From an uncultured Dorea sp. (GTDB lineage Bacteria > Bacillota > Clostridia > Lachnospirales > Lachnospiraceae): DNA of 61,501 nt. The position numbers were made by a program, and so were the translations under genes. Numbering within the stretch: position 1 is the stretch's first letter; each line of letters opens with the position of its first letter. The notes beneath the pieces are model-generated. The model worked only from the letters and a program-made list of their open reading frames with translations, had not been told where the DNA came from and searched no databases. The stretch lies in assembly GCA_947388185.1 (NCBI GenBank), contig CANDQP010000002.1, positions 1 through 61,501 of the forward strand, written 5' to 3'. Shown here one piece after another: positions 27,164-61,458 of the stretch.

Positions 27164-28180
27164 ATGGCGAATGTAGGTATTATGGGAGCTGGAAGCTGGG
27201 GGACGGCGCTGGCGCTTCTGCTTCACAGGAACGGACACCAGGTTACGGTGTGGTCGATCAGTGAAGAAGAGGTTGATATGCTGTCCGGGAAGCGGGAGCA
27301 TGTGAGTAAGCTGCCGGGAGTGAAGATTCCGGAGGATATGGAGTTTACTACGGATGTGGAGAGTACGGTAAAGGAGAAGGATTTCATCGTCCTGGCGGTG
27401 CCGTCTCCATTTACCAGGAGCACCGCGCGCAGTATGAGCCCGTATGTGGCGGAAGGACAGATCATCGTTGACGTGGCGAAGGGAATCGAAGAAGACACTC
27501 TGATGACGCTTTCTCAGCAGATCGAGCAGGAGATTCCCCAGGCGGATGTGGCGGTACTGTCAGGACCAAGCCATGCCGAGGAAGTGGGAAGAGGCCTTCC
27601 GACGATCGTGGTGATCGGAGCGAAGAAGGAAGAGACAGCCGAATATCTGCAGGAGATGTTCATGAACGAGGTGTTCCGTGTGTACACAAGCCCGGATATG
27701 CTGGGAATGGAGCTTGGGGGCTCTCTTAAGAATGTGATCGCGCTGGCCGCCGGTATCGCGGACGGTCTGGGATACGGCGACAATACGAAGGCAGCGCTGA
27801 TCACCAGAGGGATTGCGGAGATCGCAAGGCTGGGTGTGAAGATGGGCGGAGCAATCGAGAGCTTCACCGGGCTTACCGGCATCGGCGATCTGATCGTTAC
27901 CTGCGCAAGCGTCCATAGCCGTAACCGCAAAGCAGGCTATCTCATGGGACAGGGCAGGAGTATGCAGGAGGCCATGGACGAGGTCCAGATGGTGGTAGAG
28001 GGTGTGTATTCCGCGAAGGCCGCGGTAAAGCTTGGGAAGAAATATGACGTATCTCTGCCGATCATTGATAAGGTAAGCGAAGTATTATTTGAAGAGAAGG
28101 ATCCGAGAGAAGCGGTGAATGAACTGATGCTCAGGGACAGCAAGGCAGAACATCATGCGCTGCCGTGGAAGAATGATTAG
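27164..28180 (+). CDS. gpsA: glycerol-3-phosphate dehydrogenase [NAD(P)+]
   Basis: Reduces dihydroxyacetone phosphate to glycerol-3-phosphate for lipid synthesis. 338 residues. It has the N-terminal dinucleotide motif GAGSWGTALA, the SGPSHAEEVGRGLPT region, and the catalytic LGGSLKNVIALAAGIADGLGYGDNTKAALITRG with the key Lys. ATG 27164 follows GGGAGGAAG. An upstream start at 27140 adds eight residues with no better signal. In Bacillus spoIVA usually follows; here a terminator and a convergent gene follow instead. Confidence 0.97.
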   Translation: MANVGIMGAGSWGTALALLLHRNGHQVTVWSISEEEVDMLSGKREHVSKLPGVKIPEDMEFTTDVESTVKEKDFIVLAVPSPFTRSTARSMSPYVAEGQIIVDVAKGIEEDTLMTLSQQIEQEIPQADVAVLSGPSHAEEVGRGLPTIVVIGAKKEETAEYLQEMFMNEVFRVYTSPDMLGMELGGSLKNVIALAAGIADGLGYGDNTKAALITRGIAEIARLGVKMGGAIESFTGLTGIGDLIVTCASVHSRNRKAGYLMGQGRSMQEAMDEVQMVVEGVYSAKAAVKLGKKYDVSLPIIDKVSEVLFEEKDPREAVNELMLRDSKAEHHALPWKND

Positions 28181-28187
28181 GAATGAC

Positions 28188-28213
28188 AAAAGAGAGGGTT
28201 TTCCCTCTCTTTT
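28188..28213. terminator. bidirectional terminator between gpsA and the alarmone synthetase fusion
   Basis: Perfect 11-bp arms, AAAAGAGAGGG and CCCTCTCTTTT, with loop TTTT. The A-run and T-run allow function in both directions. It touches the stop codon of the minus-strand gene. Confidence 0.8.
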
Positions 28214-29282
28214 ATTCTTTTGAGTGGTCGATCTTATTGCGGATCTGCTGCATCTGCTGATCCAGCTTCTCGATGGAGTCGGCACATTCCTTGAGCTGAT
28301 GCACGATCTCATCAGTATCGTCCACATCTTTTTTGTATTTTAATTTGTGTTCCAGGCTTGCCCAGAAATCCATGGCTATGGTGCGGAACTGGATCTCTAC
28401 CTTCATGTATTTCTTCCCGTGGGACAGGAAGATAGGCACGTCAAGGATCAGATGGAGACTTCGGTAACCGTTGGATTTGGGGTTCTTTATGTAGTCCTTC
28501 CTCTTGATGACCACGATATCGTCCTGTTTGGCGAAAAGCTCTGCAAGGCGGTAGATGTCGTCGGGGAAAGAGCAGATCACACGCACTCCAGCTACATCGG
28601 TCAGATTCTCCCGGATGCTCTCCAGAGTGACAGGGAAGCCCTTCCGCTCTAACTTCTCATAGATGCTCTCCGGTGATTTCAGCCGGCTCTTGATGGATTC
28701 AAAAGGATTCCGGTTATACTGATGGGAGAATTCTGCGTTCAATACCTTAAGCTTCGTCTCCACCTCGATAATTGCAGAATTGAATTCCATCATCAGGATG
28801 TTGAAAGGCTTGGCTTCTCTCAGCTTCTCGGCCTGTAACTGAATGATCTGATATTGCTTCTGTATCGCTGCAGCCTGTTCCTCTACCTTTTGTTCTAACT
28901 GATTCTTATAAGAGAAGAGCTTGATCGCGTTCTTCACCCGGTTCTTGACCAGAGAGCTCTCGAAAGGCTTGTGGATAAAATCAGAGATCCCCAACTGGAA
29001 GCAGAGATTCTCAATCTCTATGGCATGCTCGCTGCTTATGATGAGAGTGGGGATCTGCTGTATAAGCCCCTTCTGCTGCATCTCTTTGATCACGGCGAAG
29101 CCGTCTATCTTCGGCATTCGAAGGTCCAGAAGGAGGGCGGATATCTCATGATGGGATTTCCTGAGATGTTCAAGCGCTTCTTCCCCGTTGGCAGCCATCT
29201 CAATCATATAGTCGTCTTTCAAGATGTCATATAATAATTCGCGGTTTAGTTCTGCATCATCTACGACCAGTATTTTTTTCAT
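28212..29282 (-). CDS. receiver domain fused to a RelA/SpoT-type (p)ppGpp synthetase
   Basis: 356 residues. Residues 1-120 form a complete response-regulator receiver: acidic pair D8/D9, phospho-acceptor D53 in LLLDLRMPKIDG, conserved Ser at about 83 and Lys105 in HKP. A coiled-coil (about 125-160) leads to a RelA/SpoT synthetase domain (about 165-330). It holds the small-alarmone-synthetase motif R-x-K-x3-S-x3-K (R200, K202, S206, K210), DVAGVR (229-234), NPKSNGYRSLH (267-277), and VEIQFRT plus WASLEH (295-312). No HD hydrolase or ACT/TGS regulatory domain is present. This predicts phosphorylation-controlled synthesis of pppGpp/ppGpp. No histidine kinase is adjacent. Its own promoter faces away from putP. 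All catalytic residues visible to me are conserved; activity is inferred. Confidence 0.9.
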   Translation of the reverse strand: MKKILVVDDAELNRELLYDILKDDYMIEMAANGEEALEHLRKSHHEISALLLDLRMPKIDGFAVIKEMQQKGLIQQIPTLIISSEHAIEIENLCFQLGISDFIHKPFESSLVKNRVKNAIKLFSYKNQLEQKVEEQAAAIQKQYQIIQLQAEKLREAKPFNILMMEFNSAIIEVETKLKVLNAEFSHQYNRNPFESIKSRLKSPESIYEKLERKGFPVTLESIRENLTDVAGVRVICSFPDDIYRLAELFAKQDDIVVIKRKDYIKNPKSNGYRSLHLILDVPIFLSHGKKYMKVEIQFRTIAMDFWASLEHKLKYKKDVDDTDEIVHQLKECADSIEKLDQQMQQIRNKIDHSKE

Positions 29283-29326: not shown

Positions 29327-29355
29327 AGTATACTCGATTCCCGGAGAAATGAAAA
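29327..29355 (-). promoter_or_regulatory. sigma-A promoter for the REC-synthetase fusion gene
   Basis: On the minus strand: TTTTCA (29350-29355), a 17-base spacer and TATACT (29327-29332), 45 bases from the start codon. The ribosome binding site is GAGGT. Confidence 0.5.
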
Positions 29356-29540: not shown

Positions 29541-31070
29541 ATGAGTGGTATTAGTATTATTATTCTGTGTACGATTTTTGCATATATGTGCCTGCTGGTC
29601 GGCATCGGTGTCTATAATGCAAGAAAGAACAGCAGCAGTGAAGATTTCTACCTTGGCGGCAGGAAGATGGGTGCATTGGTCGTTGCCATGAGCGCGGAGG
29701 CGAGCGATATGTCAAGCTGGCTTCTGATGGGGCTTCCGGGTGTTGCATACCTAACCGGCCTTGCGGATGCTTTCTGGACTGCAGCGGGTCTGGCGATCGG
29801 TACATATCTGAACTGGCTCTTTACATCAAGGAGACTGAGACGTTATTCAGAGCAGATTGGCGCGATCACAGTGCCTACGTTCTTCGCGAAGAGATTCCAT
29901 GATGAGAAGAATATCATTACGGCGATCTCAGCAGTGATTATCGTAGTATTCTTCGTTCCGTATGTAGCGTCTGGTTTTGCGGCGTGCGGTAAGCTCTTTA
30001 ACTCATTGTTTGGATTAGATTATATGGTTGGCGTGGTTGTATTTGCGGTTATCATTGTTGTCTATACGATTGCGGGAGGATTTACAACGGTTGCAACGAA
30101 TGACCTGATTCAGAGTATTGTAATGTCAATCGCACTGATTTCTATCGTAACCTTTGGTGTGGGCAGCGCCGGCGGTATGGGGGCTGTAATGGATAACGCC
30201 AAGTCCCTGTCGGGTTATATCTCACTTTCCGCGATCCATGATGCGGTTGCAGGTTCGGCGATCCCGTATTCACCGCTGACCGCCGTATCTCTTCTGGCAT
30301 GGGGAATCGGATATTTTGGTATGCCGCATATCCTGGTAAGATTCATGTCTATTGAAGACGAGAATAAGCTGGTGCTCTCCAGAAGGGTTGCTTCTATCTG
30401 GGTAACCTTCGCTATGGGTGTTGCGATCTTCATCGGTATCGTAGGCCTTGCAGTTGTCAATGCAGGCGGTATGCCGGCACTGGAGGACAGTGAGCGCGTG
30501 ATCATAGCTCTCACCAATGAGCTTAGCAAGAACGGATTCCTCGCAGCGGTGCTTGGAGGTGTGATCCTTGCAGGTATCCTTGCGGCGACGATGTCTACCG
30601 CGGACAGCCAGATGTTGGTAGCGGCTTCCGGTGTATCTGAGAACATTGTACAGGATTTCCTTGGTAAGAAGCTTACCGAGAAGCAGGGACTTAACGTTGC
30701 CCGTGCAACGATCCTTGGAATCGCAGTGATCGGTGTATTCCTGGCAAGAGATCCTAATTCCAGCGTATTTGGTATCGTATCCTTCGCATGGGCCGGTATG
30801 GGAGCCGCATTCGCAGGCGTCATGATCTGTGCGCTGTTCTGGAAACGTACCACTTTGCAGGGTGCGCTGGCCGGAATGATCGCAGGCGGTGTGATGGTAT
30901 TCGTATGGAAATATGCGATCCGTCCTATGGGCGGTATCCTTGATATCTATGAATTGCTTCCGGCATTCATAATCTCTCTGGCGATGATCATTATCGTGAG
31001 CCTGGCAACCAAGGCACCTTCCAAGGAGATTGTGGATGAGTTCGAGCGGGTGAATGCTAGGAATTCATAA
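29541..31070 (+). CDS. putP: sodium/proline symporter
   Basis: Sodium:solute symporter family member, 509 residues with about 12-13 hydrophobic segments. It shows the family motifs EDFYLGGRKMGALVVAMSAEASDMSSWLLMG near the N-terminus, the GGFTTVATNDLIQ region, and the later ATMSTADSQMLVAASGVSENI. Substrate assignment to proline rests on overall resemblance to PutP; a related sodium-coupled substrate is possible. Ribosome binding site GAGGTG, strong promoter upstream, clear terminator downstream. Proline uptake suits osmoprotection or Stickland fermentation. Confidence 0.9.
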   Translation: MSGISIIILCTIFAYMCLLVGIGVYNARKNSSSEDFYLGGRKMGALVVAMSAEASDMSSWLLMGLPGVAYLTGLADAFWTAAGLAIGTYLNWLFTSRRLRRYSEQIGAITVPTFFAKRFHDEKNIITAISAVIIVVFFVPYVASGFAACGKLFNSLFGLDYMVGVVVFAVIIVVYTIAGGFTTVATNDLIQSIVMSIALISIVTFGVGSAGGMGAVMDNAKSLSGYISLSAIHDAVAGSAIPYSPLTAVSLLAWGIGYFGMPHILVRFMSIEDENKLVLSRRVASIWVTFAMGVAIFIGIVGLAVVNAGGMPALEDSERVIIALTNELSKNGFLAAVLGGVILAGILAATMSTADSQMLVAASGVSENIVQDFLGKKLTEKQGLNVARATILGIAVIGVFLARDPNSSVFGIVSFAWAGMGAAFAGVMICALFWKRTTLQGALAGMIAGGVMVFVWKYAIRPMGGILDIYELLPAFIISLAMIIIVSLATKAPSKEIVDEFERVNARNS

Positions 31071-59381: not shown

Positions 59382-60731
59382 CTACCGGAGGGTGAAACCA
59401 AGCCTGATCACAAAGGTTTCATCCTCCTGTTTCACATCCATCTGACCATCCAGCAGTTCGATCATCTTCCGGACATTCTTCATACCGATATTGTTGCTGT
59501 CAGAGTGGGAGTGCCCGGCTTTGACGGAATTCGATATTATTATATAGAACATCTCTTTTTTCAATTCTGTAGTTACGATCACATTATCACACTTATCCCC
59601 GTATTTTAAGATATTGGAGAACAGGTTATTGAAGATCCGCTTAAGCATAGTCTTATCACTTAGCAGTACGCCGGAGGTCTCAGGCAGGCGCAGGTCGTAA
59701 GCAAAGCCTGCAAGCCGGATATAATCGCAGTTCTCCGACAGGCATTGCTGAATAAAATCCGTAGAAATCCAGGTGATATCGGGGGTCTCCGTTTCCTCTG
59801 CCACCAATGCGTACTCAAACATCCGGTCGGTCAGTTCCTTGATGTCCTCCGTCTTCTTCAGGCAGCGGTCCAGATATTCTTCCTGCGACTTGGGATTCCG
59901 TTTTAACTTCAGCACTTCCAGATAGCCGTGCAGGACGGTGAGGGGAGTCCGAAGATCGTGGGAGAGGGCGGTGATCAGATCCTGGTTTGCCTTGCGGCTC
60001 TCCTGTTCCTTCTGAATGTTGTCGCTGAGAGATTCTCTTAAGAGGTTCAATTCACTGGCAAGAATGCCGATCTCATTCTCACCGAAATCAGGTACCGTAT
60101 GGGTCAGATCCCCGGAGGACATAGTAAGGATTTCGTCTTTCAGGATCAATATCTGCCTCATCTTGCGGTTTAAGAAGAAGAGAACGATAACAAGGAAGAG
60201 GGAAACGGACAGGAGAAAGCATACAACCAGAAAGGGATAGATAAATAAGGTCCGCTCGTAGTTGTATATCATGACCTGTGCGCTTCCGTTAGCAAATTCC
60301 AGCATGAAGTCCATCACATATTCTCCCTGGCCGCCGGTAAGCTGGTAGCCGATATTGAAAAAGAAGAGGAAGCTTCTGGTATCCATAACGGATGCAAATT
60401 TGCCTGCGCGGTACAGGCTGTCTTCTTCACCGTAGATATAGATGGCGGTATATTCGTTGGCAAGATCAAGGAATGGCTGCAGGGCTTCGACGGCTTCAGC
60501 GTCGTCTTCTGACTCAGGGATATTATAGTTAAGAGCCTCTTCGGCAAGGGTCTCCTTAAAACTGTCGTCACTGATCTGGGTGTAGAACAGATCCAGATCT
60601 TCGGCGGCTTCGCAGAACTTCCATTTGTTCAGCCACAGCAGTTCGAAGAACGCGAAGGCGGCGATAATGGCACACAGGATTACGATTGCGGACTGTGTGC
60701 GGATCTTCATATTACGGAATCGTCTAATCAC
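59382..60731 (-). CDS. two-component sensor histidine kinase
   Basis: 449 residues. Two membrane segments (about 13-31 and 170-195) enclose an extracytoplasmic sensor domain, followed by a HAMP region (about 195-245) and the HisKA His motif ALSHDLRTPLTVLHG. The HATPase has N-box NNLFSNILKYGD and the later GMKNVRKMIELLDG (G2-like). A clear D-x-G-x-G box between them is not visible, being replaced by NSVKAGHSHSDSNN. It begins at GTG 60731, eight bases inside the response-regulator stop, behind AAAGGGG. A longer frame from 60872 is an artefact of the overlapping gene. Confidence 0.88.
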   Translation of the reverse strand: MIRRFRNMKIRTQSAIVILCAIIAAFAFFELLWLNKWKFCEAAEDLDLFYTQISDDSFKETLAEEALNYNIPESEDDAEAVEALQPFLDLANEYTAIYIYGEEDSLYRAGKFASVMDTRSFLFFFNIGYQLTGGQGEYVMDFMLEFANGSAQVMIYNYERTLFIYPFLVVCFLLSVSLFLVIVLFFLNRKMRQILILKDEILTMSSGDLTHTVPDFGENEIGILASELNLLRESLSDNIQKEQESRKANQDLITALSHDLRTPLTVLHGYLEVLKLKRNPKSQEEYLDRCLKKTEDIKELTDRMFEYALVAEETETPDITWISTDFIQQCLSENCDYIRLAGFAYDLRLPETSGVLLSDKTMLKRIFNNLFSNILKYGDKCDNVIVTTELKKEMFYIIISNSVKAGHSHSDSNNIGMKNVRKMIELLDGQMDVKQEDETFVIRLGFTLR

Positions 60732-61458
60732 AGCGATACCCCTTTCCCCATATGGTCTTGATAAGCGTCGGATTCTTCGGGTCCTTCTCGACCTTAAGCC
60801 TGAGATTGCGGATGTGGACCATGACCGTGTTGTTGGCTCCGTAGTAATAAGGTTCATTCCATACGGATTCATAGAGGTGCTGGGCGGAGAAGATCTGCCG
60901 GCGGTGCTTCACTAAGAGAAGCAGCATGGCGTATTCGGTGTCCGTCAGTACAAGGAGCGTGCCGTTAGAGGTTACCTCTTCCTTTGCTTCATCGATGATA
61001 AGGTGATGAAAGACCAGGGGCTCTTCTGGAAGATTCTGCTGTGCTGCTGCCTCTGATGCCGTAACGCCGGAATCGTCTTTCCCGCGGTAGATCTGGTAAC
61101 GTCGGATCAGCGCTTTGGCGCGGCTGATCAGCTCATTATAAGAAAATGGTTTCGCAAGGTAATCGTCGCCTCCGCTTGAAAATCCCAGAGTCTTATCGCT
61201 GTCCTTGGTGCGCGCGCTTAAGAATAAGATGGGGGCGTTGCTGCATTTGCGGATCTCAAGGCAGGTCTGATAGCCGTTGAGTCCCGGCATCATAATATCC
61301 AGGATGATCAGGTCGAAGGTAAGCTTCTTAGTCAGGGCAAGGGCGGTCTGTCCGTCGCCGGCCTCTTCGATCTCAAAGCCTTCTCCTTCTAATAAGATAT
61401 GAATGATCTCCCGGATCTCCGGGTTGTCGTCTACGATCAAGATGCGTGATTTTTCCAT
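60724..61458 (-). CDS. OmpR-family response regulator
   Basis: 244 residues. N-terminal receiver with acidic pair D10/D11, phospho-acceptor D in LIILDIMMPGLNG and Lys in YLAKPFSYNEL. A slightly long linker (about 120-145) leads to the winged-helix DNA-binding domain (TDTEYAMLLLLVKHRRQIFSAQHLYESVWNEPYYYGANNTVMVHIRNLRLKVE). Partner of the overlapping histidine kinase. AGGAG precedes ATG 61458. The target genes are probably outside the window, to the right. Confidence 0.95.
   Translation of the reverse strand: MEKSRILIVDDNPEIREIIHILLEGEGFEIEEAGDGQTALALTKKLTFDLIILDIMMPGLNGYQTCLEIRKCSNAPILFLSARTKDSDKTLGFSSGGDDYLAKPFSYNELISRAKALIRRYQIYRGKDDSGVTASEAAAQQNLPEEPLVFHHLIIDEAKEEVTSNGTLLVLTDTEYAMLLLLVKHRRQIFSAQHLYESVWNEPYYYGANNTVMVHIRNLRLKVEKDPKNPTLIKTIWGKGYRCD

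Follow-up and report, generated by a model that had tools for sequence, protein, structure and literature searches.

The window, a stretch of 61,501 nucleotides from an uncultured Dorea sp., carries a gene in which a phospho-receiver domain (REC) is joined through a coiled coil to a small alarmone synthetase (SAS) domain. As read from its sequence, the product is probably an orphan, phosphorylation-controlled (p)ppGpp synthetase, i.e., an enzymatic response regulator with an alarmone output. (p)ppGpp synthesis is known to be governed by stalled ribosomes (long RSH enzymes), allosteric ligands (RelQ) and transcription (RelP and RelQ). If the receiver controls the synthetase, the fusion would wire two-component signalling straight into the alarmone pool at the post-translational level, and a signal from outside could probably turn the alarm molecule up or down directly.

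Gene structure and genomic context

Pfam assigned Response_reg to residues 4-116 (3.5e-22) and RelA_SpoT to residues 199-319 (2.1e-34) of the product. No further domain was found up to an E value of 0.001, and since the matches end with these two, the protein has no hydrolase (HD), TGS or ACT domain. The hydrolase-free fusion of a receiver with a RelA/SpoT domain described in the initial annotation is real, and its strand, which had not been given there, is minus (Table 1). Three RelA_SpoT proteins are encoded in the genome: a long Rel-like protein, the REC fusion and a free-standing synthetase of 241 amino acids.

The start codon is preceded by the stretch AGAGG. The hairpin downstream of the gene is weak by count (one found, 1.4 expected in shuffled sequences), and the six promoter-like sites detected at the locus are not above chance (3.1 ± 1.8). 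The flanking genes belong to convergent or divergent units. The plus-strand gene ending at 28180, which we take from its sequence to be gpsA, lies behind presumptive plsY and der genes, and the gene starting at 29541 presumably encodes a PutP-like transporter. The fusion gene looks monocistronic. Among 18 loci compared, two of which (L004 and L138) are from the same genome, no operon partner recurs outside the genus, and neighbours vary inside the genus too.

Table 1. Positions of the fusion gene, its parts and adjacent elements in the window.
Feature	Position	Strand	Remarks
REC-coil-SAS fusion gene	28212-29282	minus	ORF, 356 aa; ATG at 29282, stop 28212-28214
Receiver domain	28929..29282	minus	residues ~1-118; Pfam Response_reg 4-116, conserved residues
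Receiver sites	D8 D9 29256-29261; D53 29124-29126; K105 28968-28970	minus	D53, phospho-acceptor
Coiled-coil linker	28809..28928	minus	residues ~119-158
Predicted single helix	28716..28955	minus	residues 110-189; AlphaFold2 monomer model
RelP-type (p)ppGpp synthetase domain (predicted)	28215..28808	minus	residues 159-356
Synthetase sites	R200-K210 28653-28685; P268 28479-28481; E296 28395-28397	minus	P268, G-loop
Promoter-like site	29327..29355	minus	TTTTCA-17-TATACT, 9/12; upstream of the fusion start; weak evidence
Palindromic terminator-like hairpin	28188..28213		T-rich on both sides; between the convergent neighbour (stop 28180) and the fusion gene

Distribution and conservation

The survey of REC plus RelA_SpoT architectures proposed in the initial annotation detected the fusion in every one of the 12 genomes sampled from the genus, and 11 further genera of Lachnospiraceae carry it as well. 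The 24 genomes in which it was seen comprise the 12 of the genus (G000-G011, with two pieces at two contig ends in G006), G012, members of ten more genera, and that of orthologue L007; the carriers with a public name are Lachnospiraceae, one of them an uncultured Dorea. When the window's genome was compared with 60 relatives, the full-length fusion was present in that genome, in 10 of 11 others of the genus and in one (G012) of 49 outside it. Thirteen full-length fusions were found in a sample of 397 Lachnospiraceae genomes (two in the genus, 11 in 11 other genera), and in this sample the lowest-scoring fusion reached 619 bits, the best free-standing synthetase 345 bits.

Wider samples, searched for the best five candidates per genome, contained the fusion in the window's own genome alone, both at the level of the class (391 genomes, E up to 1e-90, a threshold that would hide an independent fusion) and of the phylum (398 genomes, E up to 1e-60). 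G1170, a frame of 341 amino acids that stood out by its length among the phylum genomes, proved on reading to be without a receiver. Plasmid records held no fusion, the record with 80% cover (H48) being a hybrid kinase of 26% identity, and none of 50,697 phage records covered 80% of the fusion; some of the collections may omit records close to the window's own genome.

Median dN/dS values were 0.088 for the receiver, 0.048 for the coil and 0.042 for the synthetase, which points to purifying selection on all three parts alike. Ten sequences were compared, nine from the genus and the one of G012; of the resulting 45 pairs only 28, 8 and 17, respectively, were usable because dS was mostly saturated. 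The genome is a draft of 238 contigs, and a chimeric assembly or a pseudogene might be suspected; yet the same fusion with the same junction recurs in 24 genomes across the genus and other Lachnospiraceae genera, its frame is open and it appears to be under purifying selection. The recurrence led us to reject a chimera or chance origin, and the likelihood of either an assembly accident or a pseudogene is negligible.

The receiver

The acidic pair, the phospho-acceptor aspartate, the Ser/Thr and the Lys of response regulators are all present in the fusion, and the complete phospho-receiver read from the single sequence (D8, D9, D53, S83, K105) is borne out by its orthologues. Across 22 aligned fusion proteins D8, D9 and D53 are invariant; position 83 is Ser in 21 and Thr in one, and position 105 is Lys in 21 and Arg in one. 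L007, which lies outside this alignment, has Glu at position 8.

The synthetase

All synthetase motifs named in the initial annotation were found: R200-x-K202-x3-S206-x3-K210, DVAGVR (229-234), NPKSNGYRSLH (267-277), VEIQFRT (295-301) and WASLEH (307-312). All 22 aligned fusions share R200, K202, S206, K210, D229, R234, P268, Y273, E296 and H312; position 213 is Arg in 21 and Lys in one. The description of Staphylococcus aureus RelP (PMC5794853) lists R78, K80, S84, K88, D107, R112, Y151, E174 and H190 as ATP- and metal-binding residues; they correspond to R200, K202, S206, K210, D229, R234, Y273, E296 and H312 of the fusion, and all residues contacting ATP, Mg and guanosine in RelP are invariant in the 22 fusions. 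The G-loop proline reported to distinguish RelP (P146 in S. aureus; PMC5794853) is P268, kept in every one of them.

Several comparisons separate the domain from RelQ. The best match among solved structures was S. aureus RelP (194 bits), followed by YwaC and then RelQ (133 bits), and the fusion scored 177.7 bits, below the cut-off of 320 bits, with the NCBIfam equivalog model GTPPhKinYjbM (RelQ). In a quick tree of 68 synthetase domains, YjbM and the RelQ-like L098 split off (support 100, starred), and YwaC and S. aureus RelP fell on the side of the fusions, outside the fusion clade. Hand mapping on the alignment indicated that F42, T44 and N148 of the pppGpp site of RelQ are replaced by S/A196, K198 and D305 in the fusions, and that RelQ H111 corresponds to P268. 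The synthetase half is accordingly classified, on its sequence, as RelP-type, so that of the 'RelP/RelQ' label used in the initial annotation only the RelP part holds. The background given there on the control of these enzymes was incomplete, too, in that it omitted the allosteric stimulation of RelQ by pppGpp, which does not extend to RelP (PMC5794853). As the RelQ-type allosteric input would be lacking by homology, the receiver is left as the obvious regulator.

Intact catalytic residues fall short of proving activity, since B. subtilis RelP, with the same residues, was inactive as a synthetase in one assay (PMC5794853). This record, together with the RNA binding known for small alarmone synthetases (PMC7591505), would fit a catalytically inactive domain with a structural or RNA-binding output. 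Such an output is very unlikely: none of the 13 scored receiver and catalytic positions listed as invariant varies among the 22 fusions, and dN/dS of the synthetase is about 0.04. A toxSAS of a toxin-antitoxin pair would have the RelA_SpoT fold in common with the fusion, but the nearest solved relatives are RelP and RelQ, the G-loop NPKxNGYRSLH is of RelP type and no partner gene recurs beside the fusion, so that this assignment, already unlikely, can be given hardly any weight.

The coiled coil and the length of the linker

The coiled coil noted between receiver and synthetase is corroborated by its heptad phase and by a predicted helix. Residues L129, V133, Q136, I146, I147, Q150 and L154 are invariant, and the power of the periodicity peaks at 3.4-3.5 residues, as expected of coils. 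Its core positions are rich in Gln, and the coil may thus be weak. AlphaFold2 predicted, for the monomer, one helix of about 80 residues (110-189) joining helix 5 of the receiver, the coil and helix 1 of the synthetase. Mean pLDDT was 64-69 at residues 101-130 and 77-90 at residues 131-190 (pTM 0.56), so confidence in a continuous helix is moderate at its start. A proline at position 159, found in 11 of 22 fusions, could break the helix between the coil and synthetase helix 1.

The distance from K105 to R200 is 95 residues in 22 of 22 fusions. The linker length is thus constant and the coil phase fixed, as in the heptad-quantised linkers of the DgcR/WspR type; linker steps of seven residues, tied to a switch of coil register, are described for 1991 REC-GGDEF proteins in PMC8041772. 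In 25 of 25 REC-HD-GYP-type relatives (from L145-L167, L096, L097, L100, L101 and L112), the receiver Lys and the HD-GYP motif are 53, 60 or 67 residues apart, all 4 modulo 7. A first pattern fitted 18 of these 25 rows and a looser one all 25, with the same result; six were identified as REC-HD-GYP proteins via Pfam and the others via the motif, and rows were taken only if 135 or more positions of the receiver-coil profile aligned, a requirement that may select for well-behaved coils. These HD-GYP regulators with heptad-quantised linkers resemble the reported REC-GGDEF proteins.

Origin of the two halves

A quick tree of 47 receiver-coil stretches grouped the 22 fusion rows together (support 100, starred), nested among the receivers of REC-HD-GYP proteins. 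In the tree of 68 synthetase domains, the 23 fusion rows were set apart by one branch (support 90, not starred) among the free-standing synthetases of Lachnospiraceae. The nearest non-fusion relatives of the receiver and coil, among the matches listed, are HD-GYP proteins of 356-401 amino acids (six of six tested were confirmed by Pfam), the best of these REC-HD-GYP proteins scoring 218 bits against at least 262 bits for the fusions. From both trees and these relatives it would follow most simply, and as far as the samples show, that the receiver and coil of a REC-HD-GYP regulator were joined once, in Lachnospiraceae, to a RelP-like synthetase. One REC-HD-GYP protein, L101:474-1553 (G033:C39), combines the same coil with a pseudo-receiver (G for D9, K for D53).

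Other RelP-like synthetases were encountered in frame with unrelated Pfam domains: a GDSL-type lipase/acylhydrolase domain in a protein of 483 amino acids (L079:1149-2597, G017:C70), and glycosyltransferase family 8 in one of 552 amino acids (L099:305-1960, G218:C4). Faecal records labelled 'Bacteriophage sp.' (MT835514 and others), putatively of phages, encode free-standing synthetases about 57-60% identical to the synthetase domain of the fusion.

Candidate phosphate donors

An HMM search of 20 fusion loci from 19 genomes detected no histidine kinase gene next to the fusion, in line with the unlinked kinase postulated before; the fusion is hence regarded as an orphan regulator. The HMM was seeded with 13 of the 30 HisKA loci of the window's genome, the other 17 being outside the motif, and kinases unlike the seeds could escape it. 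A linked kinase was rejected as a candidate: three of the 20 loci contain a kinase gene, none of them adjoining, at 59385-60908 of the window (30 kb off), in L008 (about 4 kb) and in L126 (about 2.4 kb downstream and separated from the fusion by its own regulator). With the same HMM, kinases were found in five of 28 REC-HD-GYP loci, which represent 26 distinct places (two counted twice) and have shorter flanks of about 1.5 kb.

The orphan state and the constant linker length would suit equally well a constitutive synthetase whose receiver and coil serve as a scaffold fixing oligomeric state or location, with phosphorylation having little effect. This reading is improbable, because the phosphorylation residues are all kept across 12 genera, which scaffolds and pseudo-receivers need not do, as the decayed receiver of L101 exemplifies. 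Control of the fusion by phosphorylation is preferred.

In the window's own genome 48 HisKA matches and three HPt matches were found, one HPt being a free protein. Its gene (117 amino acids) overlaps the end of a gene for a REC-HD-GYP-GGDEF protein (682 amino acids), downstream of a hybrid kinase gene (846 amino acids), in a gene row on contig C23 (L123, G000:C23:2000-9500) that is likely a complete c-di-GMP phosphorelay. The receiver in this row is the closest paralogue of the fusion receiver in the genome (42% over residues 2-138). The C23 hybrid kinase and HPt operon is the leading candidate, and only a candidate, for the phosphate donor, the link being drawn from co-occurrence and from a receiver 42% alike.

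A small HPt gene, defined as an open frame of up to 145 amino acids (a limit chosen after the list was seen), occurs in 22 of 23 fusion genomes, the exception being a genome that is 74% complete, versus 12 of 23 other Lachnospiraceae (Fisher p 0.0017). Counted by genus the figures are 11 of 12 versus 12 of 23 (p 0.027). The test was conceived late, a single genus supplies 12 of the fusion genomes, the genomes compared with them were chosen by hand out of earlier samples, and genus g14 is in both groups; the co-occurrence is a lead that names a candidate, not a partner. Among the matches listed for these genomes, 10 of 27 receiver-coil genes are accompanied by a same-strand small HPt gene no more than 3 kb away; within 6 kb of the fusion there was none in 22 cases.

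It is conceivable, if rather unlikely, that in this genome one phosphorelay of a hybrid kinase and a free HPt passes phosphate both to the REC-RelP fusion, for (p)ppGpp, and to the REC-HD-GYP-GGDEF protein, for c-di-GMP, the receiver-coil being an exchangeable cassette set in matching heptad phase on HD-GYP, HD-GYP-GGDEF and RelP-type synthetase outputs. A single external signal would then set both the alarm and the lifestyle nucleotides. Another contact between the two messengers is seen in PDB entries 9g85 and 9g86, solved structures of PleD, a REC-GGDEF protein, together with c-di-GMP and either ppGpp or pppGpp.

Proposed mechanism

RelP and RelQ are homotetramers in which helix 1 forms the medial side. 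We propose that D53 receives its phosphate from a histidine kinase or an HPt protein whose gene lies elsewhere, and that phosphorylation would repack the receiver dimer and shift the crossing or register of the coil, after the model of REC-GGDEF DgcR. The shift could reach the synthetase interface because the coil is predicted to run directly into synthetase helix 1, and there it would alter how fast (p)ppGpp is made from ATP and GDP or GTP. Of the switch through the coil put forward in the initial annotation, coupling is supported by the linker lengths and the model, whereas dimerisation alone probably does not fully account for the switch, given that RelP and RelQ already form tetramers.

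By analogy with DgcR, which is activated by pseudo-phosphorylation (PMC8041772), the phosphate more likely activates than inhibits the synthetase. Conversely, the unphosphorylated fusion might be active and silenced by the relay under good conditions: the sequence is silent on the sign, and S. aureus RelP is active without an allosteric activator (PMC5794853). With the nearest mechanistic model, DgcR, pointing the other way, such an off-switch is unlikely.

With such a regulator, gut commensals could slow growth in response to a signal from the host or the diet, even when they are not starving.

Comparison with known systems

No description of a REC-RelP fusion was found in the open-access literature searched, and the word 'receiver' is absent from the excerpts of PMC3153485. 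The protein is classed with the enzymatic response regulators as a RelP-derived fusion rather than with RelP, which consists of a single domain, as the fusion has a receiver and a coil in front. RelP/SAS2 (S. aureus RelP, 6ewz; B. subtilis YwaC, 6fgk) is without these parts, and the fusion adds 158 N-terminal residues that run into helix 1. RelQ/SAS1 (B. subtilis YjbM, 5ded) has the fold and the catalytic residues in common with the fusion but differs at the pppGpp-binding positions and is far off on the tree. In RelZ (RNase HII-SAS) of Mycobacterium smegmatis an SAS is likewise fused behind another domain (PMC7591505); the partner there is a nuclease, in the fusion a signal receiver.

The Lachnospiraceae REC-coil-HD-GYP regulators have the closest receiver and coil among the non-fusion matches listed, with the end of the coil in the same phase modulo 7. 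Their output is HD-GYP (Pfam HD_5), in some with GGDEF, and several lie beside kinase or HPt genes, whereas the output of the fusion is a synthetase, Pfam detecting no GGDEF or HD-GYP domain in it, and fusions never lie beside such genes in the loci examined. DgcR and WspR (REC-GGDEF) share with the fusion the order of a receiver, a heptad coil of quantised length and a nucleotide-messenger enzyme (PMC8041772), but their product is c-di-GMP, their catalytic fold is unrelated and they work as dimers, not tetramers. The fusion would thus be a natural example of a receiver-coil cassette driving unrelated nucleotide enzymes, one of them a tetramer when free-standing.
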